Both the position numbers and the translations under genes were made by a program. Below, piece after piece: positions 22,543-43,262 of a stretch of 59,448 nt of DNA. The stretch lies in assembly GCA_003671075.1 (NCBI GenBank), contig QWPT01000004.1, forward strand, positions 29,212 through 88,659. Reading direction: 5' to 3'. Every line of letters begins with the position of its first letter. Positions within the stretch are counted from its first letter, which is position 1. This DNA is from Planctomycetota bacterium. Lineage in GTDB: Bacteria > Planctomycetota > Phycisphaerae > Phycisphaerales > SM1A02. Under the pieces are notes generated by a model, which saw only the letters and a list, made by a program, of their open reading frames with translations, was not told where the DNA came from and searched no databases.

Positions 22543-23103
22543 CTACTTGGCTGGCCCCTGGAATTGCACGCTTCGAATTCCGCGCAACCACACTGGGCCG
22601 CTTCCATCGGATGGATCGAACCACGCGATCAGGTCGACCGATTCAACGGGAAGTACATCGCTGCCACCCGACGCAAGCAGCGAGAGAATCAGTTCATGGC
22701 ACGGCCCCGCGAGCGATGTCGATCGCGCGCGCTGCACCAACTCTGGGCTGAATACCCATGTGCGCAGCGGTTCGGCGCCCAGCTTCTCCGGGGTCCCCGA
22801 CTGACCGAGTCGGTAGATGGCGAAGTGAAACGCGCCTTCGGCATAAAACGGCGATGGGTACGGGCGCGAGAAGAGATACGCGGTGACCTGCAGCGAATCA
22901 GGCAAATCGTTGCCGTTGGTGTCCGCGGGCTTGGGCGCAAATGTGATCGCCAACGCATTGGGCTTCGCCGACTTCGGAGGCGGCGTTGGATCAGTTGGCT
23001 TCACCGACGGCGCGCCACCGTCAGCGGTCGTGATCGTGGTCTGACATGCGGACATCGCCAGAACGATCGCGGAACATGCGAGTAAGAGCGCGCTCGATTT
23101 CAT
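22543..23103 (-). CDS. lipoprotein coupled to the giant secretin; candidate pilotin
   Basis: The 186-residue product opens MKSSALLLACSAIVLAMSAC, a lipoprotein signal with the cysteine in AMSAC as the lipidation site. A Pro/Lys linker follows (PTDPTPPPKSAKP), then a globular domain with DTNGNDLPDSLQV, a calcium-loop-like segment. The ATG overlaps the secretin stop (TGATG), so translation is coupled and the two are the last genes of the T2SS operon. No named family is recognised. Because secretins are usually delivered to the outer membrane by a small lipoprotein (pilotin), that role is the simplest inference, but there is no sequence match to GspS or PilW-type pilotins that I can see. Confidence 0.75.
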   Translation of the reverse strand: MKSSALLLACSAIVLAMSACQTTITTADGGAPSVKPTDPTPPPKSAKPNALAITFAPKPADTNGNDLPDSLQVTAYLFSRPYPSPFYAEGAFHFAIYRLGQSGTPEKLGAEPLRTWVFSPELVQRARSTSLAGPCHELILSLLASGGSDVLPVESVDLIAWFDPSDGSGPVWLRGIRSVQFQGPAK

Positions 23104-26100
23104 CAAGGCTGCCCCGTTCCGCTTGCTCCACCGTCGAGTTGGCTCTTGCCTTCGAGTTGACCCTTGCGGATCTGCTCGAGCAACTGCGGAGGAAGCGAGA
23201 GGCGGTCGATGCTTTCATTCGTAATCTCGCTTGCCTTCGAAGCGCCGCCGTTGCTCGGCGCACGCACGACATGCGGCGTGAGCACGATGAGCAACTCGGT
23301 TTTTGATGAGTTCTCCTTGTACTGGCGAAACAGCATGCCGAGCACTGGGATGTCTCCGAGCAGCGGAATCTTGCGATCGACGCGCTCGAAGCGGTCGCTG
23401 ATCAAACCGCCGATGACAACGGTCTGACCATCTTTCACCGTGACGGTGGTGGTTGCGCGGCGGCGCGTGATCACGGGTGAATTGAAGTCCTCGGAGAGCT
23501 GCGTCGTCTGCAGCGACAGTCGCGAAATCTCCGGCTCGATCTGCATGCGCACGAAACCTTCGGGATTGATCGACGGCGTCACAGTGAGAATGATGCCGAT
23601 GTCTTCGGGCGTCACGCTCGTCGACTGACCCGCGCTCGAGAAACTCTGGCCCGAGGGCAAGCGAACCGTTTCGCCGACCTGAATGAACCCCTTCGAGTTG
23701 TTCTCCACCATCACCGATGGATTCGACAACACTTGCACACGGCTCTGCGACGCGAGGGCGTTGATGAGGAGTTCGAAATCCTCCGCGCCGATCGCAACAT
23801 TCGGCGTGCCTGAATTGGTGAAGAGCGAGCCGAGAAGCTGGGTTCCCGGCACCCTGGTCATGTTGCCCATGCCTGCGGCGACGCCAAATTCACCGATGGT
23901 GGCGTTCCCGAACTCCGGTCCAAGCGACTCGGACTTGTCGAGCGAAACTTCCGCGAGCAACACCTGGATGAGCACCTGCGGAGGATCGACATCAAGTTCC
24001 TTAATGATCTCCTGCACTTTCTCCATGTAGCGCGGGCTTGCGTTGACGAGCACGGTGTTCGACTTCTGATCGCCAACAACAGTGACCTCGCGCTCAAGCA
24101 ACTTCGACGCACTGGGAAGTTCGTCGGCGGAGAGCGTCTGAAGAATCTTCTTCTGATCCTCGCTGACAAAGTCGTTGACCACCTTCGCAACATCAACTGC
24201 GGTCGCGTTCTTCAGCTTGTACGCGTAGGTGTCGCGCTCGTTGGCCTGCTGGCGATCGAGTTCGTTCACCACCGTTTCAACAAGCGTGAGGTAGTTGGGC
24301 GTGCCCGACACCAGAAGCGAATTGGTTCGGTCGTCGACGGTGATCGAAAGTTGCTGACGATCGTCGGGAACAAGGGTCAGATCTGCGCCGAGCGTGCCGG
24401 CCTGTTGGGTCGCGGCCGTATTGGCGGCAGCGGATGCGCCGATTTCCGCAGGCGCCTGGTCAGCAGTTTCGCGCGGCTTGAGCACATAGAGACTGCCTTG
24501 CTGGCGAAGGCTGAAGAGTTCCTTCAGGATGCGCGCCATCTGACTCGCGTCGGCGTTGACCATCTTGAAGATGCGGATGTTCTGGCTTCCGCTCGTCGAG
24601 CCATCAAGGTCGTCGACCATCTGCTGAATCAGCTCCATCGACTCGCGCGGCGCGCGCACGATGATGGTGTTGGTGCGAATGTCAGGCGTCAGCGAGATCG
24701 ACTGGCGCGTCGCGGCGGAAATCTCCATCTCCGCGCCTTGACCTGGCTTTCCGTCGATCTGGCGAAGGTACTTGAGGATCGTTGCTTGCTGGCCGGTTCG
24801 ACCCGCGAGCGAACTTCCCGACAGAACCGACTGGATAAGCCCCACGGTCTCCTGCACATTCGCGCCCTTGAGAGCGATGTACTTGATTTCGACGACCGTC
24901 TGCGGCTTCGCGCCGTCGAGTTGCGCAACAAGGCGGCGAATGGCGGCGATGTCGGCCTCGGGACCGCTGGCCACGATGGCATTCAAGCGCACATCAGGCT
25001 TGACCTGCACGATCTGCGCGCCACGGCGGCGATTCTCCTCAGTCACATACATCTCGTCGAGCATGCGCGCCATGTCGGGCGCCGCCGTCTTCGAAAGCAC
25101 GATGACCTCAAACGGCTTGTCGGCAAGCTGATCCTTGGCGGCCTGCGCGAGCAGATCAACAAGACCGCGCACGACCTCGAAGTTCTCCTCACTCGATGCG
25201 ATGATGAGCGAGTTCGACGCGACATCAGGCACAACCGACACCGCATCGGACGGCGTCTCCGAGGTTCCGAGCGAAGTCGCTCGTTCGCGCATGAGCTGTT
25301 GAATACGCGGCGCGATGGTTTCGGCGCGAGCGGCTGCCAGCGTGAGCACATGCACGCCGATCGCGGAGTTCGTCGGGATTTCATCGAGCTTGGCCACGAT
25401 CTGCCTCACCAACGCGCCGTCCTCAGGACCACCAGCAACGAGCAAACTCGAAGTGCGCGGATCAGCAATCACCAGCGGCTTCACCCGCTTCGCCACTTCG
25501 GGCGAGAGCTCGGCGTAACGCCGGTTGAGGATCTGCGAAATCGCGCCGACAAGGCGATCCATGTTCGCCTTCTTCACCGGCACCACTTCGACCGACGACT
25601 CGTCGAGAAGGCGCTCGGTATCAAGGTCGACCAGAAGCGACTTGATCACATCAAACGAATCGGCGCCCGCAGCAATCAGCAGCTGGTTGGTCCTTTCGTC
25701 GGCGGTGATGATCACGCGCTCGAGGTCAGCGGACTGCGGCTGAGTCTTCTGCAGGCGGTCGACGCGCGCGTCCATCATCTTCTGCAAGATGGCGGAAAGG
25801 CGCGGCGCGCTCGCGTTTTTCAGATCCATCAAGCGGATCTCGCGATACTCAGGCGCAACCTTGCGGTCGAGGTTCTTCAGGATCTCCTCGACAACGGTGA
25901 ACGAACGCGCGCTGGTCGAAACCACCAGCGAATTCAGGCGATCGTCGGGAACCACTCGCACGCGATCCTCGGAACGAATCGCCTTGGCTGCGACTTGTTG
26001 GTCGAAGAGCTGCACCAGCATTGGCCCGATGCGCGACGCGCTCGCGTTCTCCAGCGGATACACGCGCACGATCGATCCAGGCGCGGCCGCCTCGGTATCG

Positions 26101-29100
26101 AGTTGTTGAATGAGCTCCTGCACGATTTCAAGATTCTGCGTGCTGCCCACAAGAACAAGCGAGTTGGTTGGGAGATCGGGACGAATGACCAACTGACCGA
26201 AGGGGACGAATGTATCGCTCTCGATCGCCGCGGCCGGCTGATCACCGCGCGGCGCGCGCGCCATGCGGATACGACCAATCTGCTTCTGCAGCGGCCCGCT
26301 TTCAGGCAGTTTTGTCGAGCCTTCAACAAGCACCGCGCGCAGCGTCTCCGCGAGATCGCGCGCGTCGGCGTATTGAAGCTTGACGATGCGCGGCTCGATC
26401 CATCCGATGCTCACAGCCGAATCAAGCCGTTCGCGCAGCACCTCGACGAATGCGACTGCTTCCTCTTTGCCCGCAACGATCACGGTGTTGGTGCGATCGT
26501 CGATGGAAATGGCGACATCCTGCGCGAGCGCTTCACCAGTTGCGCCGGCGGCTTGCGCCTTCACCTGCGTTCCCGTGAGCCCGCCAATCGTTTTTCCTTG
26601 CGCGAAGAGTTCGCGCACGATGCGCGCAAACTGTTGCGCCTGGATGTTCTGCAGCGGATAGATGCGCACAACGGCCGCGTCGGTCACGGGCAGACGATCG
26701 AACAACAGCGCCGCTTCCTCGAGCGCACGCACATTGTCCGCCGTCGATGCAAGGATGATCGAATTGCTCTGCACATCGACGAGGATCTTCACTGGCTTCT
26801 GCAAGTCGAGCGCGATCGGGCTGCTCGCGCCTTCGGGTGTGATGCGAAGTCGACGCACTTGCTCCTGCAACGCGCGCGCCAGTTCGCTCTGCTTTGCGCC
26901 CGCGGCTCCGCCAGCTGCCGCGCCCGCTCCTGAACCTTGCGCGACGATGGCGCGCAGCGTTTCGGCGATACTGGCCGCCGCGGCATTCTTCATGCGCACG
27001 ATGCGAACATCGGAGTCCGCCATCGGCGGATCGGCGTCGATCGACTTGATGAGCGACAAAATGGTTTCGCGGTCGGCCGGATTGGCAACGATCACCAACG
27101 CGCTGCGATTGGCGGCTACCGAAACCTTGAGTGGTTCAGAGATGACCTTCGCAACGCTATCGATGGGCTGCGTACGATCGAGCCCGATTTCCTCGATGAT
27201 CTTCTTCGCCGCCTCCGGCGAACTATTCACGAGATCGATGATAAAGATGCCCTTGCTTGAATCAGGTGCAAGCGCGTCCATTTGTTCGACGAGTTGCTTG
27301 ATCTCCTGGAAGATCGGACCGGTCGAGGCGATGACCAGGCTGTTGGCGACGGTGTCGATCTGGATCGACAGCGTGAGGCCGGCCTGTCGGGCGCGTTGCG
27401 TAAACGCCTCGCGAATGGCTGCGGCCACGCGCGGCGCAGGCGCACTCTTCAACCGAAGAAGCTGGACCTGAAGGCCTTGCTCGGTTGCTTGCTGTTGCAG
27501 CGCCTCGGCAATCGCCGCGATGCGCGCGAAATCCTCTTCGGATGCACGCACAATGAGCGCGTTGCTCGTTGCGTCGCCAACGATGCGCAGACCGTTGTTG
27601 CGGCCAGCCTCGCGTCCGTTGCCAAACACGCGCTCGATCGATCGCGCGAGCTGCTCGGGATTTCCGTAACGCACCGCGATCAGCCGCGGCATTGGAAGTT
27701 GCGCAAAGTCGGGAAGATCTAGCTGCGCGATGATCGCATCGATCTTGCGCATGTTGGCTGGACTCGCTGCGATCACGAGGTTGTTGGAGATTTCGTCGGC
27801 GCTGGCGCTGACATACTCCTCGGCCTTCACCTGCGGAATGACCATCTGCGGCTGCTGCTGACCTTGCTGATTCTGCGGCTGCGCAGGCTGTGGCTTGGGG
27901 CGCAAATCTTCAAACGCATCGTTGATCGCACGGGCAACACTCTTTGCATCGGCGTGCTTCAGCGCGACCACGCGCAGTTGACGCGACGCGTCGTACTGCT
28001 CGGTATCAAGCTTCTCGAGCAGCAGGCGAATGCCCGCCCACTCCGATTGTTCGGCCGAGATGACCAGCGAATTGGTGGCTTCGTCGCCGATGATGCGCAC
28101 GCCCTGCTTCGACGGCGTGTCGGCGTCAAGCGCGCCCGCGCCGTAGAAATAACTGAGCGCTTCCTGAATGCCGCGCGCCTTGCCCCGCTTCAGCGGCACG
28201 AACTCAGTGACGCGCCGCTTGTCGCTGCGAATGTCGATCGCCTTGACGACATCCTGAATGGTGCGGAACTGCTCGGGCGTCGCCGCAACGATCAGCCGGT
28301 TCTCCGACGGATCGGCCTCGATCCGCGGAGCTTCGACTCCAGGAGCCGAACTCTGGCTGGAAACGAGATTGCTGAGCGTGCGCGAGACTTCGTCCGCCGC
28401 TGCGAACTGCAGCGGAATGATGCGGAAGTCGACGGTCGCCTTTGCGGGCGACTCCTCGAGCTTCGACAACAACTGCTCGATGACGGGGTAACTCTCGGGC
28501 GTCGCCGTCACGATCAGCGAATTCGAGCGCGTGTCGGCAATGACGCGGGCATTCACTTGAACCGCGGGACGGCCAGGCTCAAGGCGAACCGCGATTCCCT
28601 GCGTCCTTCCCTTGGTGTCGAGTTGCAGCGAGTTCGTCAGAATGCGCACTGCGTCTTCGGCCTTCGCCGTCTTCAGTGTGAAAGTGCGGATGACGGTTTC
28701 TTCGGCGCTTGTCGGCGCATCGAGCTTCTCGATGAGAGACTTGACCTGACCGAGCTGCAGCGGCGACGCGGTGGCGATGATGCTGTTGGTACGGACATCA
28801 GGCGTAATCGAAACAGCTGACGAACCCGCAGCGCCGCTCGAACGGCCGCGGAATTGCTCGGAAACGATCTTGGCGATGTCGGCGGCCTGACCCTTGCGCA
28901 GCACGATGATCTCGCTCTTGCGGTCACCGCCGGACTGCGGTTGATCGAGGCGCGTGACGAGGTCGCGGATCGTGGAAATCTCCTCGGGAGTTCCTGCGAT
29001 CAGAAGCGCGCCGCCCGACGCCGATGCGACGATGGTGGCTGCGCTGGTTCCGCCCGCGGCGGTAGACGCGCGTTCATCGAGAAACTGCTTCAAGGTCGAG

Positions 29101-32100
29101 GCGAGTTCAACAGGACCAGCGAATTCAACGGGAATCACCGCGCTTTGCCGGCCTTCCTGCACGAGCGTCTTGGCCAACGAGTCAAGCAGCGTCTTGATTT
29201 CGGCGTGTTGCGCATCAGTCGCGCGCACCACCAACTTGCGCGAACGGACAACGGGAATAACCCGCGAGCCCGTCGAGTTCTGCGCGGTTTCCCACGGACG
29301 CGTCTGCCGCTCGCCGATGGCGTCGCGCACCAATCCTGCGATCTGGTCGACATCGCCGTTCTTCACTTCGTAAATGCGCACCACGCGCACATCGCCTTCA
29401 GCCGGTGCAACATCCACCGCGGCGATGAAGTCGGTTGCAAAGGTAAAGCGATCTCCGCGACCCGCAACCACAATGCTGTTGCGACGCTCGTCGGCGCGCA
29501 CGCTCACCATGCTTTCAGCACGATCGTCAGCGCCCATCGATGCGAGCAATTGCTCGAGCGACGCCGCTGCCTCGGCTGCGCGCGCGAACTTCAGCGGATA
29601 CACCTTGAAATCAAGCGATTTCGCTGTGTCTGGGGCATCGAAGCCCTTCACCAATTCGGTGATTTCATTGAAATCATCTTCGTTGGCGGTCACGAACAGC
29701 GACGAACTGCGCACATCGGCAACGATCGACACCGCGCGCTGCTGCCCGCGGCCGCGACCACCGACGGCGATGGAGGCGCGATCATCGAAGAGCTTCTGCA
29801 ACGCCGTTGCAACACGCTGAGCATCGGCGCGCTCGAGCCTGACCTGCTTGATGGCAAACTTTCTGGACGCGCTGCGATCGACCTCGGCGATCACCTTGGT
29901 GATCTGCGCGCGCGCATCGGGGTCTGCGCGCAGAAGAAGAACTCCCGCCGCATCGTCAGCGACAATCTGCGCATGCTCGCGCAGTGTGGGATCTGCGCCA
30001 AACACGACCTTCTCGATGGTCGCAAGAACATCGGACGGCCTGCCGTTGCCGATGACGATGGTTTCCAGCGTTGCGCCGGCAATCGGACTCGGCGCATCGA
30101 GCACGGCAAGAAGCCGCTCGATCTCCCCATTCATCTCCGTCCCGCCGGCGATCACCACCATGTTGGTGCGCTCGTCCGCGGAAAACTCGGGCACGCTGAT
30201 CACGATTCCCTGCGCGCCGAGCGAACGGCTGCGCGCGGTAAACGCGGTCTGCAGGCTCTTCATCACATCAACGGCCTTCGCATGCTTGATCGGCACGAGC
30301 CGAAGTTCAGGCATGGGCGAACGATCGCCGCGATCGGCGAATGCTATGAAACGGTCGGCGAACGCTACCGCCTCGGGTGCACCGACAACGGTCACTGCGT
30401 TGGCGCCGCGCTCAGCGAAGACGCGCACCGTTGCTGGATCGAACGCAAGCGCATCGCCATCAGCATCGCCACGAGCATCGGCGCCATCCTGCGCGATCGT
30501 GACGGCGAGCGCCCTCATTTGCGACCCGCCGTTCTGCGAAAGAATCGAACGCAGCGCTTCAGCCACCCGATCGGCGCCAGTGTTGCGCAGCACGAAACTC
30601 TTGATCACGACCTGCTGCGCCTGCTGTCCGCGCGCGAGTGCGGCGACCAACTGGCCAATCGACTCGAAGTCACGATCGCTCGCAACCACGATCAGTGAGC
30701 GTGTTTCCTCGTCAGCGACGATCGCGACACGCTTGGCGAGATCGCCCGGCTGTCCGCCCGCTGGCGTAATGCGTGCGACAGCGCCCGTGACGATCGAAGC
30801 GATCTTCGCGGGGTCGGCCGACGGCGGCAACTGAATCGATCGCACCCGCGATCCTTCGGTGGGGAGAGTCTTCGACGCCTGCTCGATGAGCTTCATCGCG
30901 CGCTCAATCTCGCGCGGTGAACCGAGAAGCAACAGCGAGTTTGAATTCTTGTCAACGGCGACGGTCACTCCCGTCCCCGCCTGCGTGTCGCCTTCCGCGC
31001 CCGCACCTTCATCCGCCGCAGCGCTCGCCTCTTTCGCGATCTTGTCGGCCTTCGCCGCGGCGCCAACATCCACCTGCGCGAATGCCTGCACGATGAATGC
31101 GAGTCGCGCTGGCAACGATGGCGGCCAACCTGGACCACGCGGCGCAACTGCGTCCATGCTCCAGGAACCCGCACCGCTCTGCGCGCCCGCCGCTGGTTTC
31201 TTCGGCGATTCGTAACGCTTGAGCAACTCCTCGACGGTGATCACCTCGATGTCGCCGTCCTTGCCCTCCATCATCTTTCGCAGAAGCCGCGCGATGTCGT
31301 CGGCGTTGCCCTTGGATGGATCGAGCGGCACACTGCGCAGCGAACGCGAACTTGCCATCGCCGCGCCGTCAAGGCGGGTGACGATGCTCTCGATCATCGT
31401 GTACTGCTTTTCGTTGGCGCGGACCAACAGGCTGTTGCTCGCAACATTCACGCGAATCACCGGCGGCACCTCGGTGCCATCGTCGGTCTCGAAAATATCG
31501 AGAAGGCTCTTGGCGATCTCGGGCGCGTCGCCGTTGCGCAAGGTGATCACGCGCACAGTGCGGTCGCTCTCGTTGCCGGGCGTAACGTCGAGTTGGCGCA
31601 GCATTTCCTCGGCTGCATCGAGCGCGGTCGGCGTGGCGGAAATCACCACGGCGTTGAGGCGTTCGTCGGCAATCACGCGCAACGGTGGCTCAGCTGGACT
31701 GGCCGCATCGCCACGGGTGCGAGTGCGCGCGCGCGCGGCCTGCGCGGCTTCGTTGGTGAGCAATTGCTCGACGAGCGGCGCCATCTGCCCAGCGCGCGCC
31801 TTCTTCAAAAACACCGTGCGCACGCGAGCAGCATCGCGCGGCCCGCGCACATCCATGTCGCGCACCGTCTTCTCGATTTCGTCGAGTTGCTGCGGATCGG
31901 CGGCAACAACGATGGTGTTGCTCGTCATCTCAGGAGTAATCGTGGGCTTGATGCGACCAGGGCGCGACGCAGCGCGAGCGGCGACCGCCTGCTCAATAGC
32001 CTTGGCGACAGTATCTGCCGTCGCCTCACTGAGCGGATAAACGCGAATTTCAACGGGCGCGTCGCCGTCGCGCGGCTTATCGAGTTGCGTGACAACTTCA

Positions 32101-35100
32101 GTTGCGATCGACATGAGTTCCGCGGGCGCAGTGATGATCACGCGCGCGTTCAACGGGTCGGCAACGATCTTCGGCTCCATCACTGCGGCGCCCGCCTTTG
32201 CGGCCGACACGAGCGATGCGGGCCAGCGCGAGCGATCGGAAAGTACAGCAGTGAGCGCACTCACCACTACATCCGGCGAAACATGCTTGAGCTGAACAAC
32301 GCGGAAATCAGCCTGTGGCGCAGCGAAAGCCTTGCTGTCGAGCTCAGAGAGAATTTCCTTCGCGCGTGCCGTTCCTTCAGTGGTGCCGACGATGACGATA
32401 GTGCCCGACTGTGCAAGCGCGGACAATTCGATGCGCGACGCTCCGCCAGTACCAGCGCTCTCGAGAATTCGACGCGCCTCCTCAACAAGCAGCGACACCG
32501 GGGCCTTGGTTGGCGTGAACACGATCCACGAGCGCGACGACGCATCGCCGTCACGATCGAGTTCCTTGATGAGCCCTTCGGCGACGCTCATGATGCGTGC
32601 AGCACCAGAGACGATCAGCGAATTGGTGCGCGGATCGGCCTCAACACGCACTGGCGGCGTTGGCGCGATCTGACCGCGCGTGCGGCGCATGCGCTCAATC
32701 GCAAGACGCGGATCGGTGTCCTGCTGGTCGGCAAGCAGCCGCTGCACCAGAGGAGCAATGCGCGCGCTATCGGTGTTCTTCAGCACAAATGTTTTCGCAT
32801 CAACCGAGTCGAGCGCGGGACGCTCGTCCAGTGGAGCGATGAGCTTGTCGGCCTCATCGAGATCGGTCGCAGGCCCCACCATGAGCAGCGCGTTCGATCC
32901 GGTTGCGGCAATCACCTTCACCGCCAACGGTTCGTGGGTCGCAGGATTGGTCGCGGCACCGAGCGCTTGCGTCAGGCTTGACGCAACTTCAGTTGCATCG
33001 GCGTAAAGCAACGGGCGCACGCGCACGATTGGCTCGCCCGCCGACAGATTGCCATCATCGAGTTGACGGACCAACTCCTCAACCACGGGCATCAGCGCAT
33101 CGGGCGCGCTCACGATGAGCGCGTTGGAACGACGATCAGAGGCGATGTCGAGCACGCGGGTGGCGCGGCTGGCGAGCGTCGGCTCGATTTCCGCGAGCCT
33201 GCCCTCGAGCGCGCTGCGCACGAGCGGAGCCAGCGATTCAGCCTTCGCACTCTTCAACTTGAAAACGCGCAGCGTGGTTGCGGGCTGTGCCGCTCCCTCG
33301 ACGCCCTTGACGACCTGCTCCACTCGCGGAAAAACGCTGGCGGCAGCGCTCACAACCAGCGTCTTCGAGACCGGCTCGGTGGTGACGACGGTGCTGGTGC
33401 CTTCTGGTCCAAACTTGCCCGCAACGGCGAGCTCGCGAATGGTCTTGGCGATTCCTTCGAGGTTTCCATCGGCCAAACGCCAAGTGCGAATTTCCGCATC
33501 GGGCATCGCTTGGGTGCGATCGAGTTGTTCGACAAGCTTCTCGAAGCCGGCCATGCGCGCGAGCGGCGCGTCGACGATGAGCGAGTTGGTCTGCGCATCG
33601 GCGCGCACCACGACTTCACGCGGAGGCTGAAGCTCGGGCCGAGCTCGTCCGCGCGGATCCACCGGCACCGGCGGCTGCGGATACATCTCGTCGATGGTCT
33701 TGGCCAACTCACCTGCACGCGCAACTTTCAGCGAGAAAATGCGGATCTCTCGATCGGAAGCGGACTGCCGCGTCGCACCGTTGAGATCCTCGACGATCTT
33801 CTGAATCTCGGGCAACAAATCGGGATGCGCGGCCACGATCAGCGCGTTGGTCTGCGCCTCAGCGGTGATTTGCACGGGCTTCGCGCCCTTTTCCTCTGGC
33901 GTGCGCTGCGCATATGTCTGCATGAGCGCGGTCGCGAGAGTGGCAGCATCGGCGCTGCGCAACTGCAGAATGCGCAGCGGTGGCGTGGCGCCCATGGGCA
34001 CATCGAGATTCTTGAGAAGAACAGCGAGCAACTCATGTTGGCGCGCATCGGCGGCAACGAGCAGCGAGTTGGTGCGATCGAGCACCTCGATCACCGGCTC
34101 ACGCGCAAATCCCGCGCTCTGACCGAGTCGGCTGGCGGCGAGGCCATCGAGATAGGCCTTGGCGTCGACGGCCTTGGCGAAACTCATTGGAATAACGCGG
34201 ACATCCGCGCTCGGACTCGTCGCGGCAACGAGTTGGCGACATGCATCGGCAAAACGCGCGAGCGGCTCGTCCTCACCACTGGCAACGATGGTTCCGTTGG
34301 CAGCGTCGATCTCCGTCTCGATCGCGGGCTTCTCGCCCTCGGCGGGTTCGAGCGCGGCAAGCTTGAGCGCCTTGGCCAGAAGCACAGCCGCATCGCCCGC
34401 TCCGACATCGATCACGCGCACGCCACGCTTGACCGCCACTGCCTGCAGCTGCTTGAGCAACTGCTCGGTCTTCTCGAAGGTCATCGAATCGCCCGCGACA
34501 ATCAGCGTGCGGCTGGTGGCCTCAGTTTGCACCAGCACATCGACAGGCTTCGCGCCGTCGACGCCGGGCTTCGAAAGCATTCCACGCGCGCCGAGATCGC
34601 GCAGCGTCTGCGCGATGCGCTCGATGTCACCCTTGTCCACGCGATAGGTGCGCAGTTCCGCTTGTGGCGGCAACGGCGTGCGATCGAGCGTGAGCACGAG
34701 CTGCTCAAAGCTCGCGCGGCGCTCCGACGGCGCCTCGACGATGAGCGAGTTGGTGGTTGCATCGGCGGTGACGAAGACTTCCTTCGGCTTCTGCAGATGG
34801 GGCAGCGGACGGCCGCGTGCATCGAGAGGAACTGCCGGCGGCGGATAGAGCTTGTCGAGCGCGGTAGCGAGGTCGGTCGCCTTGGCGGCCTTGAGCGCCA
34901 TGACGAAAGTCTCGCGGGTCGGGCCCGCGCCGGTATCGCCCGAGCGGTTGAGTTCGCCGATGAATCCCTTGATTTCCTCGAACACACTCGCGTGCGCGGT
35001 GACGATCAGCGTGTTGGTGGTGGCATCGCTCTCGATGCGCACGGGCTTCAAACGGCGCTCGTCGGGAGCGCGTTCGTCGTAACGCTTGGCGAGCATCGCC

Positions 35101-37529
35101 GCGACCTGATTTGCATCGCCGCCACGCAGCTGCAGCAGCCGAAGCGGCGGCAGTTCCTCGGGCGAGGAGATGTCGAGATCGCGCACGAAGCTGTCGATGA
35201 GCGCGAGCTGCGGCGCTTCACCGATGATGTAAAGCGAGTTGGTCGGCTCGATGACCTTGATCTCGGCCGCAGGAACGCTGCGCGACGGATCGACGGGCGA
35301 CGCAGACGCGAGCAGCGGCGAAAGTTTCGCTGCAACATCGCTTGCCTTGGCTGCACGCATCGGCACGATTTTCGCCGTGCGCGGCGGCGGCATCAGTTGG
35401 CGCGCCTGTCCGAGCGCCTGCTCGAACATCGCAACCGAAGCGCTGCGTCCGCCCACGAGCAGCGCACCGCTTGACGAATCGATCTCGACGGTTGGCGCAG
35501 GAAACTCCTGCTCGGAGCCCTTTGCCAATTGAGCAAACACCATGTTGGCGCGCTCAACCAGCCGAGCGACATCAGCACCGGGCGCGGGAATCGCGCGGAA
35601 AGCGAAGGCGTCGCGGCCCGCGCGATCCAACCCCGCCACCAACGACTGCACCTGCGCGACCTGCTCGGGCGTGCCCGAAACAAGCAGCGCCTTCATCGAG
35701 TCAACGGCCTCAATCGAGGGCGGAACGAAGGGCAGTCCGTCATGCGGGTCAAGCACCTGCTTGGCGAGCTCGCGTACCTGCGCGACGATCGTGCTCGGCT
35801 GCGCGTTCACAAGCGCAATCTGCCGCGTTTCGCGCTCAACCACGCGAGTCGCGTCGACCTGGTTCATCAATTCGGTGAAGCGAGAGATCGACTGCGCGCT
35901 GCCGATGAGCACCAGTTCATGACTCTTGGCGTCGTACTCGATGCGCAAACTGCGCGATGGATCGCTCGCCTTCGTCTGCTGCTCGTAGAGCTGGCGCGTA
36001 CGCTCGAGGCTGGCCTCGCCATCCTTGCTGGTTATGCGAATGAGGCGCACCTGGCGGTCGACATTGGCCGGGCGGTCGAGCGTTTCCACGATCGCGCGGA
36101 TGCCCGCGATGTCGGAGGAATCGCCGCCGACCAGAACCGTGCGGCCATCGGGGCCGGCAACCAGCGTGACTTCGTCCTGCTGACGCTTGGAAAGAAGTGA
36201 CTTCGCCGCAGCGAGAATCGCATCGGGCGACGCGCTCTGCAATTCAATCGCCGCAATCGCGCGATCGCCGCGCAGACGGTCGCGAGTAGTCGCGCCCTGT
36301 TTGGCCGCGGCGATCTTCTTCGGATCGAATCCTTCCATCTCGCCGATGAATCGCTCAGCGTCATCGATCGCTCCGAGATCACCAACGATGGTCACGCGTT
36401 CGGCTTCGGGCAACGCAACAATCGTCGGCTTCTTGTCGGCGGGATAGCCAGCGAACAATTGCTCGAGCCGTTCCTTCGCCGCCTGCGGCTTCACCTTCTC
36501 GACTGAAAATGTCTTCATGCCACGACCGCCCGACGCCGTCGGCGCAGCAGCATCGGCCATCGGCACATCGAGCAACTCAAGCGTCTGGCGAACCGATTCG
36601 ATCTTGGCGCGCGGACCGCGGGCGATGATTGCGTTGGTGCGGTCGTCGGCGGCGAGCATCAAGCCCGCAACCCTATTTTCCTCGATCTTCTGCCGCTTTC
36701 CATCAGCGATCACATACTCCACCACGCGCTCGCCCATCAATGCCTGCAAACTCAGGATGATCAAGCTGGCCTTGGTGAAGCGCACTGGAATGAGCTCGAT
36801 GATATTCTCGACATCCTGGCGGTCGAGCTCTTCGATGATGCGCTGCAGTCGGCGAACCTGCGCAGCGGTTTCAACAATGAGCACGGCGTTCTGCTGCTCA
36901 AGCGCGGTGACGGAACCGTAGCTCGCCACCAGCGACTTGAGTTGTTCGGCGACGGGCTTCGCCTGTGCGTTCAGCAGCGGCAGCACGATGGTGACGATCT
37001 CTTCGTCGCCAATATTCGCGGGCACGGTGCCGATGAAGGTCGGCACATTCTCACGCTTCATGTCGTCGAGCTTCTGCAGATACAGCCGACTGCCATCATC
37101 GCGCAGCATGCATCCTTGCGTCTGCAGCAGCACATTCATCGTGCGCAACGCTTCCTCGAGCGTGTAATCCTTTGGATAGATGTAGTCGACCGTGCCCTTG
37201 GGAACGTCGGTCTCACGCACCACGGGCAGACCAGTGGTGCGACTGAAGTAGTCGAGGATCTGGTCGTAGGTCTGACCCTTGAAGTTGAAGCGCACCCGCA
37301 CCGATTGACGCGACGGCGGCGTTTGCGGAGCAGCGTTCGAAGCGGGCGTCGTGGAACTCTGGCTCTCAGGAGCCGGAGCCGTAGGAGCCGCTGCTTGAGG
37401 AGCCGATTCTTGAAGAGCCGATGCGATCGTTGGCTGTCCTGCAATCGCAGCCGCTATCAGCGGGGTGACGCCCGTCACCATTTGCGCCATGCTCGTCATG
37501 CCCGTCGACCGCCTCGTTCGCTTCTTCAT
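23103..37529 (-). CDS. gspD: giant T2SS secretin GspD with about 52 N-domains
   Basis: A single open frame of about 4808 residues, against 650-750 for normal GspD. Order: signal peptide (about 1-38, ending ASA); Pro/Ala linker; N0 domain (about 76-155, FNFKGQTYDQILDYFSRTTG onward); then about 52 secretin N-domains (156-4516). Each averages 84 residues and carries a variant of D-x-R-T-N-S-L-I-V near its middle and ends with a leucine-aspartate helix. The secretin pore (4517-4808) follows, with QVLLAEVSLDKSESLGPEFG, VQVLSNPSVMVENN, ITRRRATTTVTVKDGQTVVI, KIPLLGDIPVLGMLF and TELLIVLTPHVV, then a short S-domain-like tail. The ATG at 37529 has GGAG upstream. The secretin lets folded proteins cross the outer membrane. 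No frame break is visible anywhere. Confidence 0.97.
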   Translation of the reverse strand: MKKRTRRSTGMTSMAQMVTGVTPLIAAAIAGQPTIASALQESAPQAAAPTAPAPESQSSTTPASNAAPQTPPSRQSVRVRFNFKGQTYDQILDYFSRTTGLPVVRETDVPKGTVDYIYPKDYTLEEALRTMNVLLQTQGCMLRDDGSRLYLQKLDDMKRENVPTFIGTVPANIGDEEIVTIVLPLLNAQAKPVAEQLKSLVASYGSVTALEQQNAVLIVETAAQVRRLQRIIEELDRQDVENIIELIPVRFTKASLIILSLQALMGERVVEYVIADGKRQKIEENRVAGLMLAADDRTNAIIARGPRAKIESVRQTLELLDVPMADAAAPTASGGRGMKTFSVEKVKPQAAKERLEQLFAGYPADKKPTIVALPEAERVTIVGDLGAIDDAERFIGEMEGFDPKKIAAAKQGATTRDRLRGDRAIAAIELQSASPDAILAAAKSLLSKRQQDEVTLVAGPDGRTVLVGGDSSDIAGIRAIVETLDRPANVDRQVRLIRITSKDGEASLERTRQLYEQQTKASDPSRSLRIEYDAKSHELVLIGSAQSISRFTELMNQVDATRVVERETRQIALVNAQPSTIVAQVRELAKQVLDPHDGLPFVPPSIEAVDSMKALLVSGTPEQVAQVQSLVAGLDRAGRDAFAFRAIPAPGADVARLVERANMVFAQLAKGSEQEFPAPTVEIDSSSGALLVGGRSASVAMFEQALGQARQLMPPPRTAKIVPMRAAKASDVAAKLSPLLASASPVDPSRSVPAAEIKVIEPTNSLYIIGEAPQLALIDSFVRDLDISSPEELPPLRLLQLRGGDANQVAAMLAKRYDERAPDERRLKPVRIESDATTNTLIVTAHASVFEEIKGFIGELNRSGDTGAGPTRETFVMALKAAKATDLATALDKLYPPPAVPLDARGRPLPHLQKPKEVFVTADATTNSLIVEAPSERRASFEQLVLTLDRTPLPPQAELRTYRVDKGDIERIAQTLRDLGARGMLSKPGVDGAKPVDVLVQTEATSRTLIVAGDSMTFEKTEQLLKQLQAVAVKRGVRVIDVGAGDAAVLLAKALKLAALEPAEGEKPAIETEIDAANGTIVASGEDEPLARFADACRQLVAATSPSADVRVIPMSFAKAVDAKAYLDGLAASRLGQSAGFAREPVIEVLDRTNSLLVAADARQHELLAVLLKNLDVPMGATPPLRILQLRSADAATLATALMQTYAQRTPEEKGAKPVQITAEAQTNALIVAAHPDLLPEIQKIVEDLNGATRQSASDREIRIFSLKVARAGELAKTIDEMYPQPPVPVDPRGRARPELQPPREVVVRADAQTNSLIVDAPLARMAGFEKLVEQLDRTQAMPDAEIRTWRLADGNLEGIAKTIRELAVAGKFGPEGTSTVVTTEPVSKTLVVSAAASVFPRVEQVVKGVEGAAQPATTLRVFKLKSAKAESLAPLVRSALEGRLAEIEPTLASRATRVLDIASDRRSNALIVSAPDALMPVVEELVRQLDDGNLSAGEPIVRVRPLLYADATEVASSLTQALGAATNPATHEPLAVKVIAATGSNALLMVGPATDLDEADKLIAPLDERPALDSVDAKTFVLKNTDSARIAPLVQRLLADQQDTDPRLAIERMRRTRGQIAPTPPVRVEADPRTNSLIVSGAARIMSVAEGLIKELDRDGDASSRSWIVFTPTKAPVSLLVEEARRILESAGTGGASRIELSALAQSGTIVIVGTTEGTARAKEILSELDSKAFAAPQADFRVVQLKHVSPDVVVSALTAVLSDRSRWPASLVSAAKAGAAVMEPKIVADPLNARVIITAPAELMSIATEVVTQLDKPRDGDAPVEIRVYPLSEATADTVAKAIEQAVAARAASRPGRIKPTITPEMTSNTIVVAADPQQLDEIEKTVRDMDVRGPRDAARVRTVFLKKARAGQMAPLVEQLLTNEAAQAARARTRTRGDAASPAEPPLRVIADERLNAVVISATPTALDAAEEMLRQLDVTPGNESDRTVRVITLRNGDAPEIAKSLLDIFETDDGTEVPPVIRVNVASNSLLVRANEKQYTMIESIVTRLDGAAMASSRSLRSVPLDPSKGNADDIARLLRKMMEGKDGDIEVITVEELLKRYESPKKPAAGAQSGAGSWSMDAVAPRGPGWPPSLPARLAFIVQAFAQVDVGAAAKADKIAKEASAAADEGAGAEGDTQAGTGVTVAVDKNSNSLLLLGSPREIERAMKLIEQASKTLPTEGSRVRSIQLPPSADPAKIASIVTGAVARITPAGGQPGDLAKRVAIVADEETRSLIVVASDRDFESIGQLVAALARGQQAQQVVIKSFVLRNTGADRVAEALRSILSQNGGSQMRALAVTIAQDGADARGDADGDALAFDPATVRVFAERGANAVTVVGAPEAVAFADRFIAFADRGDRSPMPELRLVPIKHAKAVDVMKSLQTAFTARSRSLGAQGIVISVPEFSADERTNMVVIAGGTEMNGEIERLLAVLDAPSPIAGATLETIVIGNGRPSDVLATIEKVVFGADPTLREHAQIVADDAAGVLLLRADPDARAQITKVIAEVDRSASRKFAIKQVRLERADAQRVATALQKLFDDRASIAVGGRGRGQQRAVSIVADVRSSSLFVTANEDDFNEITELVKGFDAPDTAKSLDFKVYPLKFARAAEAAASLEQLLASMGADDRAESMVSVRADERRNSIVVAGRGDRFTFATDFIAAVDVAPAEGDVRVVRIYEVKNGDVDQIAGLVRDAIGERQTRPWETAQNSTGSRVIPVVRSRKLVVRATDAQHAEIKTLLDSLAKTLVQEGRQSAVIPVEFAGPVELASTLKQFLDERASTAAGGTSAATIVASASGGALLIAGTPEEISTIRDLVTRLDQPQSGGDRKSEIIVLRKGQAADIAKIVSEQFRGRSSGAAGSSAVSITPDVRTNSIIATASPLQLGQVKSLIEKLDAPTSAEETVIRTFTLKTAKAEDAVRILTNSLQLDTKGRTQGIAVRLEPGRPAVQVNARVIADTRSNSLIVTATPESYPVIEQLLSKLEESPAKATVDFRIIPLQFAAADEVSRTLSNLVSSQSSAPGVEAPRIEADPSENRLIVAATPEQFRTIQDVVKAIDIRSDKRRVTEFVPLKRGKARGIQEALSYFYGAGALDADTPSKQGVRIIGDEATNSLVISAEQSEWAGIRLLLEKLDTEQYDASRQLRVVALKHADAKSVARAINDAFEDLRPKPQPAQPQNQQGQQQPQMVIPQVKAEEYVSASADEISNNLVIAASPANMRKIDAIIAQLDLPDFAQLPMPRLIAVRYGNPEQLARSIERVFGNGREAGRNNGLRIVGDATSNALIVRASEEDFARIAAIAEALQQQATEQGLQVQLLRLKSAPAPRVAAAIREAFTQRARQAGLTLSIQIDTVANSLVIASTGPIFQEIKQLVEQMDALAPDSSKGIFIIDLVNSSPEAAKKIIEEIGLDRTQPIDSVAKVISEPLKVSVAANRSALVIVANPADRETILSLIKSIDADPPMADSDVRIVRMKNAAAASIAETLRAIVAQGSGAGAAAGGAAGAKQSELARALQEQVRRLRITPEGASSPIALDLQKPVKILVDVQSNSIILASTADNVRALEEAALLFDRLPVTDAAVVRIYPLQNIQAQQFARIVRELFAQGKTIGGLTGTQVKAQAAGATGEALAQDVAISIDDRTNTVIVAGKEEAVAFVEVLRERLDSAVSIGWIEPRIVKLQYADARDLAETLRAVLVEGSTKLPESGPLQKQIGRIRMARAPRGDQPAAAIESDTFVPFGQLVIRPDLPTNSLVLVGSTQNLEIVQELIQQLDTEAAAPGSIVRVYPLENASASRIGPMLVQLFDQQVAAKAIRSEDRVRVVPDDRLNSLVVSTSARSFTVVEEILKNLDRKVAPEYREIRLMDLKNASAPRLSAILQKMMDARVDRLQKTQPQSADLERVIITADERTNQLLIAAGADSFDVIKSLLVDLDTERLLDESSVEVVPVKKANMDRLVGAISQILNRRYAELSPEVAKRVKPLVIADPRTSSLLVAGGPEDGALVRQIVAKLDEIPTNSAIGVHVLTLAAARAETIAPRIQQLMRERATSLGTSETPSDAVSVVPDVASNSLIIASSEENFEVVRGLVDLLAQAAKDQLADKPFEVIVLSKTAAPDMARMLDEMYVTEENRRRGAQIVQVKPDVRLNAIVASGPEADIAAIRRLVAQLDGAKPQTVVEIKYIALKGANVQETVGLIQSVLSGSSLAGRTGQQATILKYLRQIDGKPGQGAEMEISAATRQSISLTPDIRTNTIIVRAPRESMELIQQMVDDLDGSTSGSQNIRIFKMVNADASQMARILKELFSLRQQGSLYVLKPRETADQAPAEIGASAAANTAATQQAGTLGADLTLVPDDRQQLSITVDDRTNSLLVSGTPNYLTLVETVVNELDRQQANERDTYAYKLKNATAVDVAKVVNDFVSEDQKKILQTLSADELPSASKLLEREVTVVGDQKSNTVLVNASPRYMEKVQEIIKELDVDPPQVLIQVLLAEVSLDKSESLGPEFGNATIGEFGVAAGMGNMTRVPGTQLLGSLFTNSGTPNVAIGAEDFELLINALASQSRVQVLSNPSVMVENNSKGFIQVGETVRLPSGQSFSSAGQSTSVTPEDIGIILTVTPSINPEGFVRMQIEPEISRLSLQTTQLSEDFNSPVITRRRATTTVTVKDGQTVVIGGLISDRFERVDRKIPLLGDIPVLGMLFRQYKENSSKTELLIVLTPHVVRAPSNGGASKASEITNESIDRLSLPPQLLEQIRKGQLEGKSQLDGGASGTGQP
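23982..37064 (-). repeat. protein-level tandem array of secretin N-domains (~250 bp period)
   Basis: My manual parse gives 52 units of about 75-115 residues, most with the sequence order beta-helix-...-(T/S)N(S/A/T)L(I/V)V-...-helix-LD. Units 7-11 and 12-16 are an obvious higher-order duplication. Unit 25 contains a long low-complexity insert (about 30955-31225). Units 38, 42, 44, 50 and 51 have expanded loops. DNA identity between neighbours is modest, so the array is old and not an assembly stutter. The count may be off by one or two, because a few units (3-5) lack the TNSLIV motif. Confidence 0.88.
37368..37427. repeat. four 15-bp tandem units at the secretin N-terminus
   Basis: On the plus strand AGGAGCCGGAGCCGT, AGGAGCCGCTGCTTG, AGGAGCCGATTCTTG and AAGAGCCGATGCGAT cover 60 bases. 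They encode four five-residue units (IASAL, QESAP, QAAAP, TAPAP) straddling the signal-peptidase site and beginning the flexible linker before N0. Confidence 0.8.
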
Positions 37530-37542
37530 GCTGACTCCGTTC

Positions 37543-37651: not shown

Positions 37652-38740
37652 TCACCCGTTGGTCGGCGACGCAAGCAACGCAGACCGTTGAGTGAGGTTG
37701 GTTCCAACCTGAATTCGACAGGCACCAGATGGGCTCTCGAACACGGCGAAATCATACTCGACGCCGCGGAAAACAAGCTCTCCGGCAGTCATGGTTGGAT
37801 GAAGCACAACATTCGATCCTGAAGGAAGATGACGCAGCCAAGCCTCGGGTCCGCTCGGGCCTTCGATCACGCCGGTGATCTGCCATTCTCCGTAAGGAAA
37901 TCCACCCGGTCCAATCGGAGGAACTGTTGCTGTCACTGCGGCCTGCGCGGGAGCGGTCGCGGTCGGCGCTGCGCCAGGAACGGCGGCGATTGCGGCGGGC
38001 ACGACCACGGGCGGCGGTGGAATGCGAAACGGGTTGGAGGAGAAGAGCGCGGCGTATCGATCTGCGAGTTGGAGCGTCGCTGGATCAAACTTCGGCGGCG
38101 TCTTCCCGACATACCCGGGCATGAACGGGGTGGTGAGTCTGAGTGTGACGCCGACCTGCTGGCCATCCGTACTCGGATTGAGCCTGACCGACTCGATGCG
38201 CTTAATCCACGGCTCGGCGTCAACGCGGAAAATCAATCGGTAAACCTTGTCGACAGAGGCTCTTGCAATCACAGTTGCTTGAACCTCCATGAAGTCGATC
38301 TCGTCGCGCATTTTGCGCGAGTCGGGTGATTTGAACTCTTTCTTGGCGGGCGTTGGCCGCCCAACCGAGGTTCCGGTGGTCACCGAAAAGTCGTTGAAGC
38401 CGAGCTCTTCGCAGGCGCGATTGAGCCGCCGGCGGACCTCGCTGTCGACGGTCTCAAGACTCGAACCGAGCATCTGGTTGGCGATGCCCTGCAACTTGCC
38501 GTCGAGCTCGGGGCGCGCCTTCGACTTCGCGGTCGCGTCGGTCAGGACCTGCACATAGGTATCGATCTCGGCGAGGGCGGAGACTCGCTCTGCTGACATG
38601 CGCCGGTCGCCGACGAAGAAGCCGATCAGAATCGCGCTGATCACGCTCACCGCGATGGCGAGGGTGAACCAGTGACGACGGAGGAGTCGGGATGGATCGA
38701 TCGATTTCACGGAAATCGATGTCACGGAGATCGACTTCAT
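37652..38740 (-). CDS. fused inner-membrane T2SS protein: GspM/PilO-like plus GspC/PilP-like HR domain
   Basis: The 362-residue product has a short cytoplasmic start, a transmembrane helix (about residues 24-45, FTLAIAVSVISAILIGFFVG) and a coiled-coil/ferredoxin-like periplasmic region with PilO/GspM character to about residue 215. A Pro/Ala linker (about 230-265) follows. The C-terminal domain beginning YGEWQITGVIEGPSGPEAWL has the beta-strand pattern of the homology region of GspC or PilP, the part that binds the secretin N0 domain. No separate gspC is present, so this fusion probably takes its place. The ATG overlaps the gspL stop (ATGA). Its first codons lie in a 15-bp tandem array and repeat as Ser-Ile-Ser-Val. 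Family assignment is by topology and position more than by strong sequence identity. Confidence 0.68.
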   Translation of the reverse strand: MKSISVTSISVKSIDPSRLLRRHWFTLAIAVSVISAILIGFFVGDRRMSAERVSALAEIDTYVQVLTDATAKSKARPELDGKLQGIANQMLGSSLETVDSEVRRRLNRACEELGFNDFSVTTGTSVGRPTPAKKEFKSPDSRKMRDEIDFMEVQATVIARASVDKVYRLIFRVDAEPWIKRIESVRLNPSTDGQQVGVTLRLTTPFMPGYVGKTPPKFDPATLQLADRYAALFSSNPFRIPPPPVVVPAAIAAVPGAAPTATAPAQAAVTATVPPIGPGGFPYGEWQITGVIEGPSGPEAWLRHLPSGSNVVLHPTMTAGELVFRGVEYDFAVFESPSGACRIQVGTNLTQRSALLASPTNG

Positions 38741-38744
38741 GATC
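38700..38744. repeat. three 15-bp tandem units over the gspM/C start codon
   Basis: ATCGATTTCACGGAA, ATCGATGTCACGGAG and ATCGACTTCATGATC (plus strand) span 45 bases and include the complementary start codon at 38740-38738. The protein consequently begins MKSISVTSISVKSID, with the same five-residue phrase repeated. Confidence 0.85.
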
Positions 38745-40335
38745 CGCCCCCTGCTTTCGCCGCGGGATCCGCTGCGCCACCCGCCACGCCCAATTGCTTG
38801 GGTTCGAGTTCAGTTGTGCGCAGCGTGTAAGCGAAGGGATAGGGAAGTCGGCGACCACCGCGCGCATCGGCGCCCGTCGAACCAACGGTGTAGCCCTTCT
38901 CCTTCACCAACGCGTCGCGCAACGCATCGGCGGTGGTGCGGTCTTTCGCCTCGCCGTCGAGAATGAAGCGCAGTTCAGGCTTTGCCGACATCTTGCCTAC
39001 GTCGCTGTACTCGATTTCAGTGGCGTCGAGCTGTGCACTCAGGCTGTCAAGCACAACGCTCGATGGATCAGGCGCGAACCGCCGAAGGCCATCGAAGTGG
39101 GCGAGCCAATCGGGCGCGAGCAAACGATACGCCTCGATGTGTTTGACCTTGAGGTCATCGCGCTTGTAGCGAAGACGCAACGGTGATGCGGTGCGGGCCT
39201 TGGCTCGCAGATCATCGTGGCGACCTTCAAGCGCAGACCATGATCGCGCGCCGAAAGTCCAGCCACCAAGTCCCGCGATCACCATGATTCCCGCGATCGT
39301 GAGGATGCGCTGGCGCGTTCGCGCGGCAACATCGATAAGCGCGGTGGGATGCAACAGGTCGATCGCGTCGCCCGTTGCCACAACCGCAGCGTCATCTTCC
39401 AGCAACAGACCAGCGAGGGGAAGACAACTGGCGCACGCTTGCTCGCGCACATCGGCCGAAGCGAAGGCTACGCGCGGATGCGAGTCGAGGCGCACCGCCG
39501 AGCAACCCGCGATGGCCGCCAATTGCGGCGCGATCAAAGCGGCGACCGCTTTGTCCGCAACGATCACAACGCGATCAAGCGCAAGCCCATCGGGAGACGA
39601 ACGGAGCGCGGCAAGAAGACGGCGGAATTCGACGAGAATTGCAGTGTTTTTTTGCTCATCGCTTCCTGAACCAAGCGCGGCTCCGCGTGAATGCAGCAAC
39701 TCGCCGTCGCGCACCAGCGTGCACTCGAGCATGTCGCGCGTTGCGTCGACGGCGAGGGTACAGCCATGCTGCATCGTGTCACTGGCGCGGATAAGTGCGA
39801 GCATGCCGAGTGCGCGCACCGAGATGCGCGCGACCGGCGAACCAGCGCGCGCCGAAGCCTCGTCGATGCGCGCCCTTGTTGCGGCGGCCACCACAACACT
39901 GGTCACGCCGCTTGATGTCGACGAACGCTGAAAGTCGCAAAGCGTTTCCATTCCCTCGACGCTGTAGTCGCGGACCAACGCCATGCGCGCCATGCTGCGC
40001 AACTCCGCCTCGTCATCGCAAGGAAGTTCAACCCGTCCAATGAGTGACTCTTCACGCGCGAGGGCGATCACGCATGGGGCTCCGGGAACTCCTAGAATTT
40101 CCCTCGGATTTGCGCGCTCGCCATCGGGTGTCACCACTTCGTCGAACACGCGGACGATGGTGATACGACCCGCCGAGCGCTCGCAGAGAATCGCGCGCGA
40201 CCAACCCGGGCCCGTGTCGATGGCAAGCCGCCGCGCGTCGACCTTGGCACGACGCGACGAATTCGGAATGAGCCGCGTCCACTGTTGGGCGATTGCCGCA
40301 ACTGGGCTTGAGATTGGCTTGCCTGTGTCTGCCAT
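38737..40335 (-). CDS. gspL: T2SS GspL-type protein (PilM-like ATPase-fold plus PilN-like membrane part)
   Basis: The 532-residue product starts with an actin-like PilM/GspL cytoplasmic domain (about 30-340: LAIDTGPGWSRAILCE, VIALAREESLIGRVELP, TLAVDATRDMLECTLVRDG). A single transmembrane helix (about 355-372, ILTIAGIMVIAGLGGWTF) is followed by a coiled coil and a ferredoxin-like PilN/GspL periplasmic domain, ending in a Gly/Ala-rich tail. GspL joins the secretion ATPase GspE to the periplasmic machinery. The start codon lies in an 11-bp array with three further ATGs upstream. The stop overlaps the gspM/C start. gspE itself is absent from the window. Confidence 0.78.
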   Translation of the reverse strand: MADTGKPISSPVAAIAQQWTRLIPNSSRRAKVDARRLAIDTGPGWSRAILCERSAGRITIVRVFDEVVTPDGERANPREILGVPGAPCVIALAREESLIGRVELPCDDEAELRSMARMALVRDYSVEGMETLCDFQRSSTSSGVTSVVVAAATRARIDEASARAGSPVARISVRALGMLALIRASDTMQHGCTLAVDATRDMLECTLVRDGELLHSRGAALGSGSDEQKNTAILVEFRRLLAALRSSPDGLALDRVVIVADKAVAALIAPQLAAIAGCSAVRLDSHPRVAFASADVREQACASCLPLAGLLLEDDAAVVATGDAIDLLHPTALIDVAARTRQRILTIAGIMVIAGLGGWTFGARSWSALEGRHDDLRAKARTASPLRLRYKRDDLKVKHIEAYRLLAPDWLAHFDGLRRFAPDPSSVVLDSLSAQLDATEIEYSDVGKMSAKPELRFILDGEAKDRTTADALRDALVKEKGYTVGSTGADARGGRRLPYPFAYTLRTTELEPKQLGVAGGAADPAAKAGGGS

Positions 40336-43221: not shown

Positions 43222-43262
43222 CCATGATCCATCCATGATCTACGCATGATCTACGCATGATC
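43219..43262 (-). repeat. four 11-bp tandem units, each with an ATG, at the gspI start
   Basis: Plus-strand units CATCCATGATC (43219, 43230) and TACGCATGATC (43241, 43252) cover 44 bases. On the coding strand they give ATGs every 11 bases (43258, 43247, 43236, 43225) plus 43232 and the likely start at 43221. The design (4 x 11, ATG per unit, ending at the gene's own start) is the same as at gspL although the unit sequence differs. Confidence 0.88.

Follow-up and report, generated by a model that had tools for sequence, protein, structure and literature searches.

Type II secretion systems export folded exoproteins, and their secretin GspD, a 15-mer of stacked rings, has an N0 domain followed by about three further N-domains. 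The planctomycete envelope is a structure that has long been disputed, and giant genes are reportedly the subject of a 2023 bioRxiv preprint by West-Roberts. According to the accessible text of two sources, PilQ of Thermus thermophilus has six N-rings and a channel of about 35 nm that spans most of a wide periplasm (PMC4463427, PMC5745081), and it is one of the largest such systems characterised (PMC5745081). Large periplasmic enlargements have been seen by tomography in Planctopirus limnophila, as stated in the available part of PMC5394234. The GspD norm of about three N-domains does not hold for the secretin encoded in the window analysed here (the whole stretch of 59,448 nucleotides), which has N0 but about 52 N-domains. 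The gene and its domains are as follows.

23103..37529, minus strand: giant type II-type secretin gene (gspD-like), 4808 aa from the ATG at 37529
37416..37529, minus strand: Sec-type signal peptide, by eye; residues 23-60 of the longer frame, in agreement with the starts of orthologous frames
37023..37313, minus strand: N0 domain (platform-docking end), from an N0 profile built from orthologues and from AlphaFold2 with Foldseek to the N-terminal domains of PulD/XcpQ
23970..36995, minus strand: array of about 52 Secretin_N domains, 51 significant and 1 weak (residues 358-427)
23262..23759, minus strand: secretin pore domain PF00263, from Pfam and from Foldseek to GspD 5zdh (E=5.8e-29)

A frame without a stop spans 23103-37595 on the minus strand. 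The ATG at 37529 is the likely start because a typical signal peptide (by eye) begins there, GGAG stands before it, and the starts of several relatives agree. The product, 4808 aa and 514 kDa, is about seven times as long as the usual type II channel protein, and one unbroken frame runs from the signal peptide and N0 through about 52 secretin N-domains to a complete GspD-type pore. The initial annotation had described a continuous frame of about 4800 residues, without a strand, with about 52 N-domains and a complete, normal-looking pore, and had expected a 15-mer of more than 7 MDa; all of this was borne out, the computed mass of the 15-mer being 7.7 MDa. Pfam placed 46 Secretin_N stretches individually above threshold (family E=0) and a single Secretin pore at residues 4613-4778 (E=1.1e-48; PF00263, 165 bits against a cut-off of 27.5). 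An HMM iterated on the protein found, in addition to N0, 51 N-domains at E<=1e-3 and two weak ones, and one of the weak matches, at residues 2084-2140 with 4.6 bits, belongs to a partial domain of a joint in the middle of the array. A broader HMM was built for counts across families because one trained on this array might undercount the others; it again found 51 domains here. The NCBIfam model TIGR02517 (GspD) scored 1262 bits against a cut-off of 351, a sum inflated by the repeats, with its best stretch at residues 4417-4781. The PilQ (440 bits) and SctC (386 bits) models also exceeded their cut-offs, with scores that are likewise summed over repeats and lie below that of GspD. Membership in GspD is thus indicated by both the PF00263 pore and TIGR02517.

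AlphaFold2 models of each end as a monomer, 1092 and 1098 residues long, had mean pLDDT values of 75 and 71 and consist of repeated beta-alpha-beta-beta-alpha units. Type II secretins ranked first in Foldseek for both, with PulD 6hcg (E=4.5e-11) for the N-terminal model and GspD 5zdh, at the value listed above, for the C-terminal one. The pTM of the models was low (0.31 and 0.32), and the mutual arrangement of the domains is therefore not predicted. The stretch after the pore is conserved and predicted to be helical. Domains within the array share a mean identity of 25% (maximum, 56%), and Tandem Repeats Finder reported just two short rows inside the gene, so that collapse of repeats from short reads is implausible.

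The giant secretin is a family across much of the class Phycisphaerae. A stop-free frame of at least 3000 aa through the secretin pore was present in at least 29 of 61 genomes (the source genome and 60 relatives). Among 298 genomes of the class, the source genome included, the C-terminal profile found 132 at E<=1e-120, of which 70 had a frame of at least 3000 aa. A class-wide PF03958 search, which scored at most 19 candidates per genome, served as a lead only. The search for homologues in Phycisphaerae with domain counts, which the initial annotation had proposed, thus found giants to be widespread, and 42 complete fused giants carry 30 to 63 N-domains (median, 43; counts by one HMM). The longest (L161) has 6169 aa and 63 N-domains. 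Single-contig genomes with a giant are G024 (4856 aa), G046 (4634 aa), G062 (4557 aa), and G329 (4933 aa). Of 392 genomes from the phylum, 13 had a frame of at least 3000 aa, and all 13 belong to the order of the source organism. The longest matched secretin frame outside the class has 1495 aa, a figure that leaves out pores so divergent that they fail E<=1e-60. Named genomes, when scanned, gave at least 80 loci, including long frames in MAGs labelled Verrucomicrobia (such as L132, with 3961 aa, L126, and L128). Among 240 genomes from the phylum of one of these MAGs, G683, two matched at E<=1e-90 and G683 alone has a giant; in that phylum the giant is therefore confined to few members, perhaps by transfer. 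No cultured species bearing a giant was identified among the genomes examined. The MAG titles of five giant-type contigs (L125, L129, L134, L106, and L065), which name Klebsiella pneumoniae, Akkermansia muciniphila, Cyanobacteria, or Phycisphaera mikurensis, look doubtful. Two apparently short secretins in the giant clade, L097 (chromosome record CP053450.1) and L057, proved to be giants with frame breaks; such breaks, also seen in L152, occur in arrays from single genomes and do not distinguish sequencing error from decay.

The array is old and kept by selection. All 51 domains are reciprocal best matches of, and collinear with, those of a relative in the genus (L039). Between 32 and 50 domains are collinear in seven family members and 38 to 40 in three members of family f2, where random order would give 9 to 11. 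L050 (43 domains) and L051 (46 domains) show little collinearity with this array: 8 domains are in order of 14 and of 12 reciprocal matches, respectively, which about 2% (L050) and 0.5% (L051) of random orders reach. Blocks can be lost, as L038 is without most domains between positions 7 and 21. Whole-gene dN/dS in four pairs was 0.10, 0.035, 0.11, and 0.233, approximate values with dS near or above 1. In the three pairs examined by domain, pN was lower than pS in every domain, and the fastest-changing domains were about numbers 24 to 35. A recent tandem expansion was rejected on the grounds of the one-to-one collinearity, the low identity between domains, and dN/dS. A tree of 64 pores placed the long forms in three groups (support, 98/100, 100/99, and 91/94), distinct both from the ordinary secretins and from the four of 1253-1495 aa that come from outside the class. 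With all long forms held together, p-AU was 0.063 when the two long branches L002 and L003 were left out and L097, 'mid' in the 64-pore tree, was counted as long; a single origin is not rejected.

The secretin gene stands among genes of a type II secretion operon.

22543..23103, minus strand: lipoprotein gene, candidate pilotin; overlaps the secretin stop (TGATG), with a lipobox
37652..38740, minus strand: GspM-like, by position; no Pfam match here, weak PilO or T2SSM in relatives
38737..40335, minus strand: GspL/PilM-like, weak here; PilM_2 clear in relatives
40377..42092, minus strand: GspK-like minor pseudopilin, E=0.13 here; T2SSK clear in relatives
42089..42793, minus strand: GspJ-like pseudopilin, N_methyl E=0.0013, below cut-off
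42790..43236, minus strand: GspI-like pseudopilin, gspI E=3.9e-5, below cut-off
43315..44151, minus strand: GspH-like pseudopilin, N_methyl E=0.005, below cut-off
44161..44682, minus strand: GspG major pseudopilin, T2SSG E=1.6e-25
44800..46014, minus strand: GspF platform protein, T2SSF E=4.4e-52

The genes gspF to gspM lie upstream of the secretin on the same strand, and the lipoprotein gene lies downstream. The gspF-M context and the coupled lipoprotein named in the initial annotation were both recovered. GspF and GspG are clear, and H, I, J, K, L, and M rest on weak matches, position, and relatives, for which L150, L164, and L112 were used (T2SSK and PilM clear; PilO and T2SSM weak). The content of a type II operon (GspF, GspG, minor pseudopilins, GspL, and GspM) is therefore present. 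No gspE is found in the operon, and 10 T2SSE matches over cut-off lie on other contigs of the genome. GspC (PF11356) had no match in the source genome, which is 97.6% complete; the control matched 2 of 14, E. coli and Caulobacter. The GspL-like gene was strong (E<=4.1e-56) in all seven genomes with a giant or split giant, including G034, where it is not adjacent to the secretin, and in none of 13 without a giant (best, 4.9e-9); these 20 genomes were picked for presence or absence, and the profile, made from giant-bearing loci, favours those. The 13 giant-less genomes, of family f1 (G016, G017, G019, G020, G022, G023, G028, G032, G033, G148, G198, G236, and G265), are small in 12 cases (2.0-2.8 Mb; G023, 3.3 Mb). 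G180 (2.2 Mb) retains a frame of 3109 aa, so a small genome does not always mean loss of the giant.

A homologue of the lipoprotein directly follows the secretin in 64 of 100 loci searched, some of which are the same DNA twice. The other 36 loci gave no match, and many of them end soon after the secretin. Under a loose lipobox rule, a candidate was present in 57 of 78 loci with enough sequence, including some labelled Verrucomicrobia and three with composite arrays. The family (about 185 aa) matched no known family in NCBIfam, PHROGs, or Pfam, and matches to PDB sequences were at chance level only. Its lipobox and adjacency to the secretin make the lipoprotein a candidate pilotin. Just upstream of gspF, at 46057-46932 on the minus strand of the window, lies a gene for a predicted exported protein without a Pfam match that ends in VPAPGAMALLAGAGLLRRRRR, which we take to be a PEP-CTERM-like sorting tail. 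This protein is a possible cargo of the machine.

The array is interrupted near its middle by the joint mentioned above.

30957..31343, minus strand: mid-array joint, a partial N-domain with a low-complexity linker (residues 2085-2213); split point in three related MAGs
31074..31115, minus strand: signal-peptide-like segment at residues 2161-2174 of the protein, within the joint; conserved in all 8 genus members examined

The segment resembles the end of a signal peptide (of the type LPAR..AF....AFAQ). Other family members have looser counterparts; the segment is present in L044 and looser in L053. The joint of L038 is without the hydrophobic segment, and no such joint was findable by motif in L050 and L051. 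An old gene fusion may have left the segment behind as a scar, or the chain may be processed there. The three related MAGs L061-L063 form one clade in the pore tree (100/99); in them the giant consists of two adjacent genes split at the joint, and the second gene carries its own signal peptide (by eye). Two of these MAGs, G277 and G204, from one genus, were fetched again as L163 and L162.

A further division is seen in families f17, f19, and f21. Their pore frames of 1605-1908 aa carry 14 to 16 N-domains, and the pore gene is directly preceded by a pore-less gene of N-domains, or in f21 by two. These frames had been taken for short secretins, a reading that the separate array genes upstream rule out. 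Complete pore-less array genes carry 10 to 30 N-domains, and in the three of their proteins that were searched, Pfam detected Secretin_N but not Secretin. N0 was detected on the first, pore-less gene in five of six complete composites (L148-L151 and L167), weakly (E 4e-5 to 4e-9), and was not significant in L156; in the split loci L162 and L163 the first gene gave a strong match. The pore gene had no N0 in any of these eight loci. The six composites, two of which (L149 and L151) are closely related, had totals of 38 to 44 N-domains, and the split loci had 43 (L162) and 39 (L163); L152 (overlapping frames and unread bases) and L153-L155 (cut by contig ends) are excluded from these totals. In L150 the order of the operon slots is K-L-M-array-pore. 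Judging from these genes, separate proteins without a pore can carry part of the array. In planctomycete genomes outside the class, two frames with 5 or 6 domains and no detected pore, at 15333-19175 (minus strand) of L158 and 3-2534 (plus strand) of L159, lie about 11 to 13 kb away from a secretin frame, which has 1364 or 1495 aa; the L158 frame has an N0 match, and the L159 frame is cut by the end of the locus.

We consider that a type II-type secretin with a periplasmic part extended to about 52 stacked rings, forming one long conduit, has a slight balance of probability in its favour. N0 would dock on an inner-membrane platform of GspF, GspL, GspM, and the pseudopilins, and the C-terminal pore would sit in the outer membrane with the dedicated lipoprotein as its probable pilotin. 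Stacked co-axially as rings, the N-domains would make up a single long tunnel or sheath that would guide a substrate or pseudopilus across a periplasm that is enlarged or invaginated. We infer the ring stacking, the tube, the pilotin role, the cargo, and the enlarged periplasm at the site. With 52 rings at an assumed 2.5-4 nm each, the tube would measure about 130-200 nm. The array is presumably on the periplasmic side because the N-terminal signal peptide and the C-terminal outer-membrane pore would place it there, as in known secretins; this speaks against the extracellular fibre that the initial annotation had also offered. The long conduit that it had proposed gains indirect support from the divided forms, with N0 and pore ends on separate genes and similar ring totals. 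End-to-end stacking predicts that the end parts can lie apart, that the sums are similar, and that the breakpoints move, and the divided forms fit these predictions; stacking into one long channel is the simplest reading. More generally, one giant chain or two to three proteins could stack into a modular tunnel of about 40 to 60 rings and more than 100 nm, a conduit and ruler across an enlarged or invaginated periplasm, in which an N0-bearing pore-less base, an optional middle segment, and a pore-bearing top would follow one another. We put this forward tentatively, as somewhat more easily wrong than right. FlgA- and FlgH-like genes for flagellar P and L rings lie at 15470-17397 of the window (plus strand), and the organism probably has a flagellum with outer rings. 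Flagellar L and P rings need membranes that are close together, and the periplasm therefore cannot be 150 nm wide everywhere; the conduit would run through a local enlargement of the kind seen in Planctopirus limnophila. Also counting against one tube are the signal-peptide-like segment of the joint, which is odd for a continuous tube protein and would fit processing, the open placement of domains in AlphaFold2, the lack of a GspC match and of gspE in the operon, the weak order in L050 and L051, the 36 loci without a lipoprotein match, and the description of cultured Phycisphaeraceae as free of crateriform structures.

Some of these points suit other explanations better. The width problem raised by the flagellum genes would be eased if the protein were an ordinary secretin, made of the pore and a few adjacent rings, whose other N-domains form no tube but a flexible periplasmic tail or tether, with a task such as reaching the inner-membrane platform or binding peptidoglycan or a substrate. 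Beads that are folded with undefined mutual placement are consistent with such a tail, as are the low-complexity joint and the fast evolution of domains 24 to 35 or thereabouts. However, orthology is one-to-one and selection purifying along the array, and fused and divided forms have similar ring totals. In the divided forms, moreover, no covalent bond links the protein with N0 to the pore, and a tether would therefore fail without contact between the proteins. We think a tether unlikely.

The joint itself raises the alternative that the chain is cut there and that its N-terminal half serves as a separate periplasmic scaffold or sheath outside the secretion channel. The segment shared across the genus and, more loosely, the family, the split of L061-L063 at the joint with a new signal peptide on the second gene, and the separate pore-less array proteins of f17, f19, and f21 all agree with processing. 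The platform-binding domain N0, however, is on the N-terminal part, which points to a channel function. The pore gene keeps 14 to 16 rings in composites and 24 in split loci, so the breakpoints differ; the hydrophobic segment is missing from the joint of L038, the motif finds no such joint in L050 or L051, and the segment may be a mere scar of an old fusion. A processed array thus appears rather improbable to us. An assembly or binning artefact or a decaying repeat would be compatible with a source MAG of 113 contigs and with the frame breaks of L057 and L097. Against this stand full-length frames in single-contig genomes and in many species, the collinearity, dN/dS, and the lack of collapsible repeats at the DNA level; the chance of an artefact or decay is negligible here, and for the family the single-contig frames, collinearity, and dN/dS refute it. 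The concern about a collapsed or mis-joined array, raised in the initial annotation, is largely answered by the same frames and the same lack of DNA repeats, and its view of a functioning secretin instead of a decayed repeat agrees with a gene that collinearity, dN/dS, and conservation mark as real and selected.

Returning to the stacked-ring conduit, its rings would make a channel that, to our knowledge, is far longer than any known secretin. The ring count would then predict a distance within the planctomycete envelope that is checkable by cryo-tomography, and what the data suggest is a protein tunnel of great length that crosses an enlarged cell envelope. Judging from the composite loci, separate ring proteins may together be able to build one secretin; if so, pore-less ring-extension proteins would be a new kind of secretion-system component. 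The giant secretin could also be used to engineer channel length and would be a marker for a class that is largely uncultured. An array spread, as predicted from the genes, over two or three adjacent genes in other families is new here. A search of open-access literature, including the accessible parts of PMC11573180, PMC12057145, PMC6461901, PMC10066038, and PMC3422733, gave no report of giant secretins and no description of a secretin assembled from separate ring proteins.

Compared with GspD, PulD, and XcpQ (PDB 6hcg, 5wq7, 5zdh, and 4ec5), the secretin has 4808 aa, whereas PDB GspD chains matched by the profile have at most 657 aa; its array is spread over several genes in other families, and no GspC was found. 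The pilotins GspS/AspS and PulS are secretin-dedicated outer-membrane lipoproteins; a pilotin is needed for outer-membrane targeting and binds the C-terminus of its secretin. The candidate here is encoded directly after the secretin. In contrast to them, it matches no known family, and its role is putative. The crateriform structures of Planctomycetes link the outer and cytoplasmic membranes in cells with an enlarged periplasm, according to the available part of PMC5394234. In contrast to the giant, they are described in Planctopirus and, in the accessible text of PMC8882080 and PMC7783415, cultured Phycisphaeraceae are described without them, while matched secretin frames outside the class reach at most 1495 aa. 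PilQ of T. thermophilus also has extra N-rings in an organism with a wide periplasm, as far as the accessible text of PMC5745081 goes. PilQ, however, has six N-rings in 757 aa and serves a type IV pilus and DNA uptake, whereas the giant would have about nine times as many rings and belongs to a T2SS-type operon.
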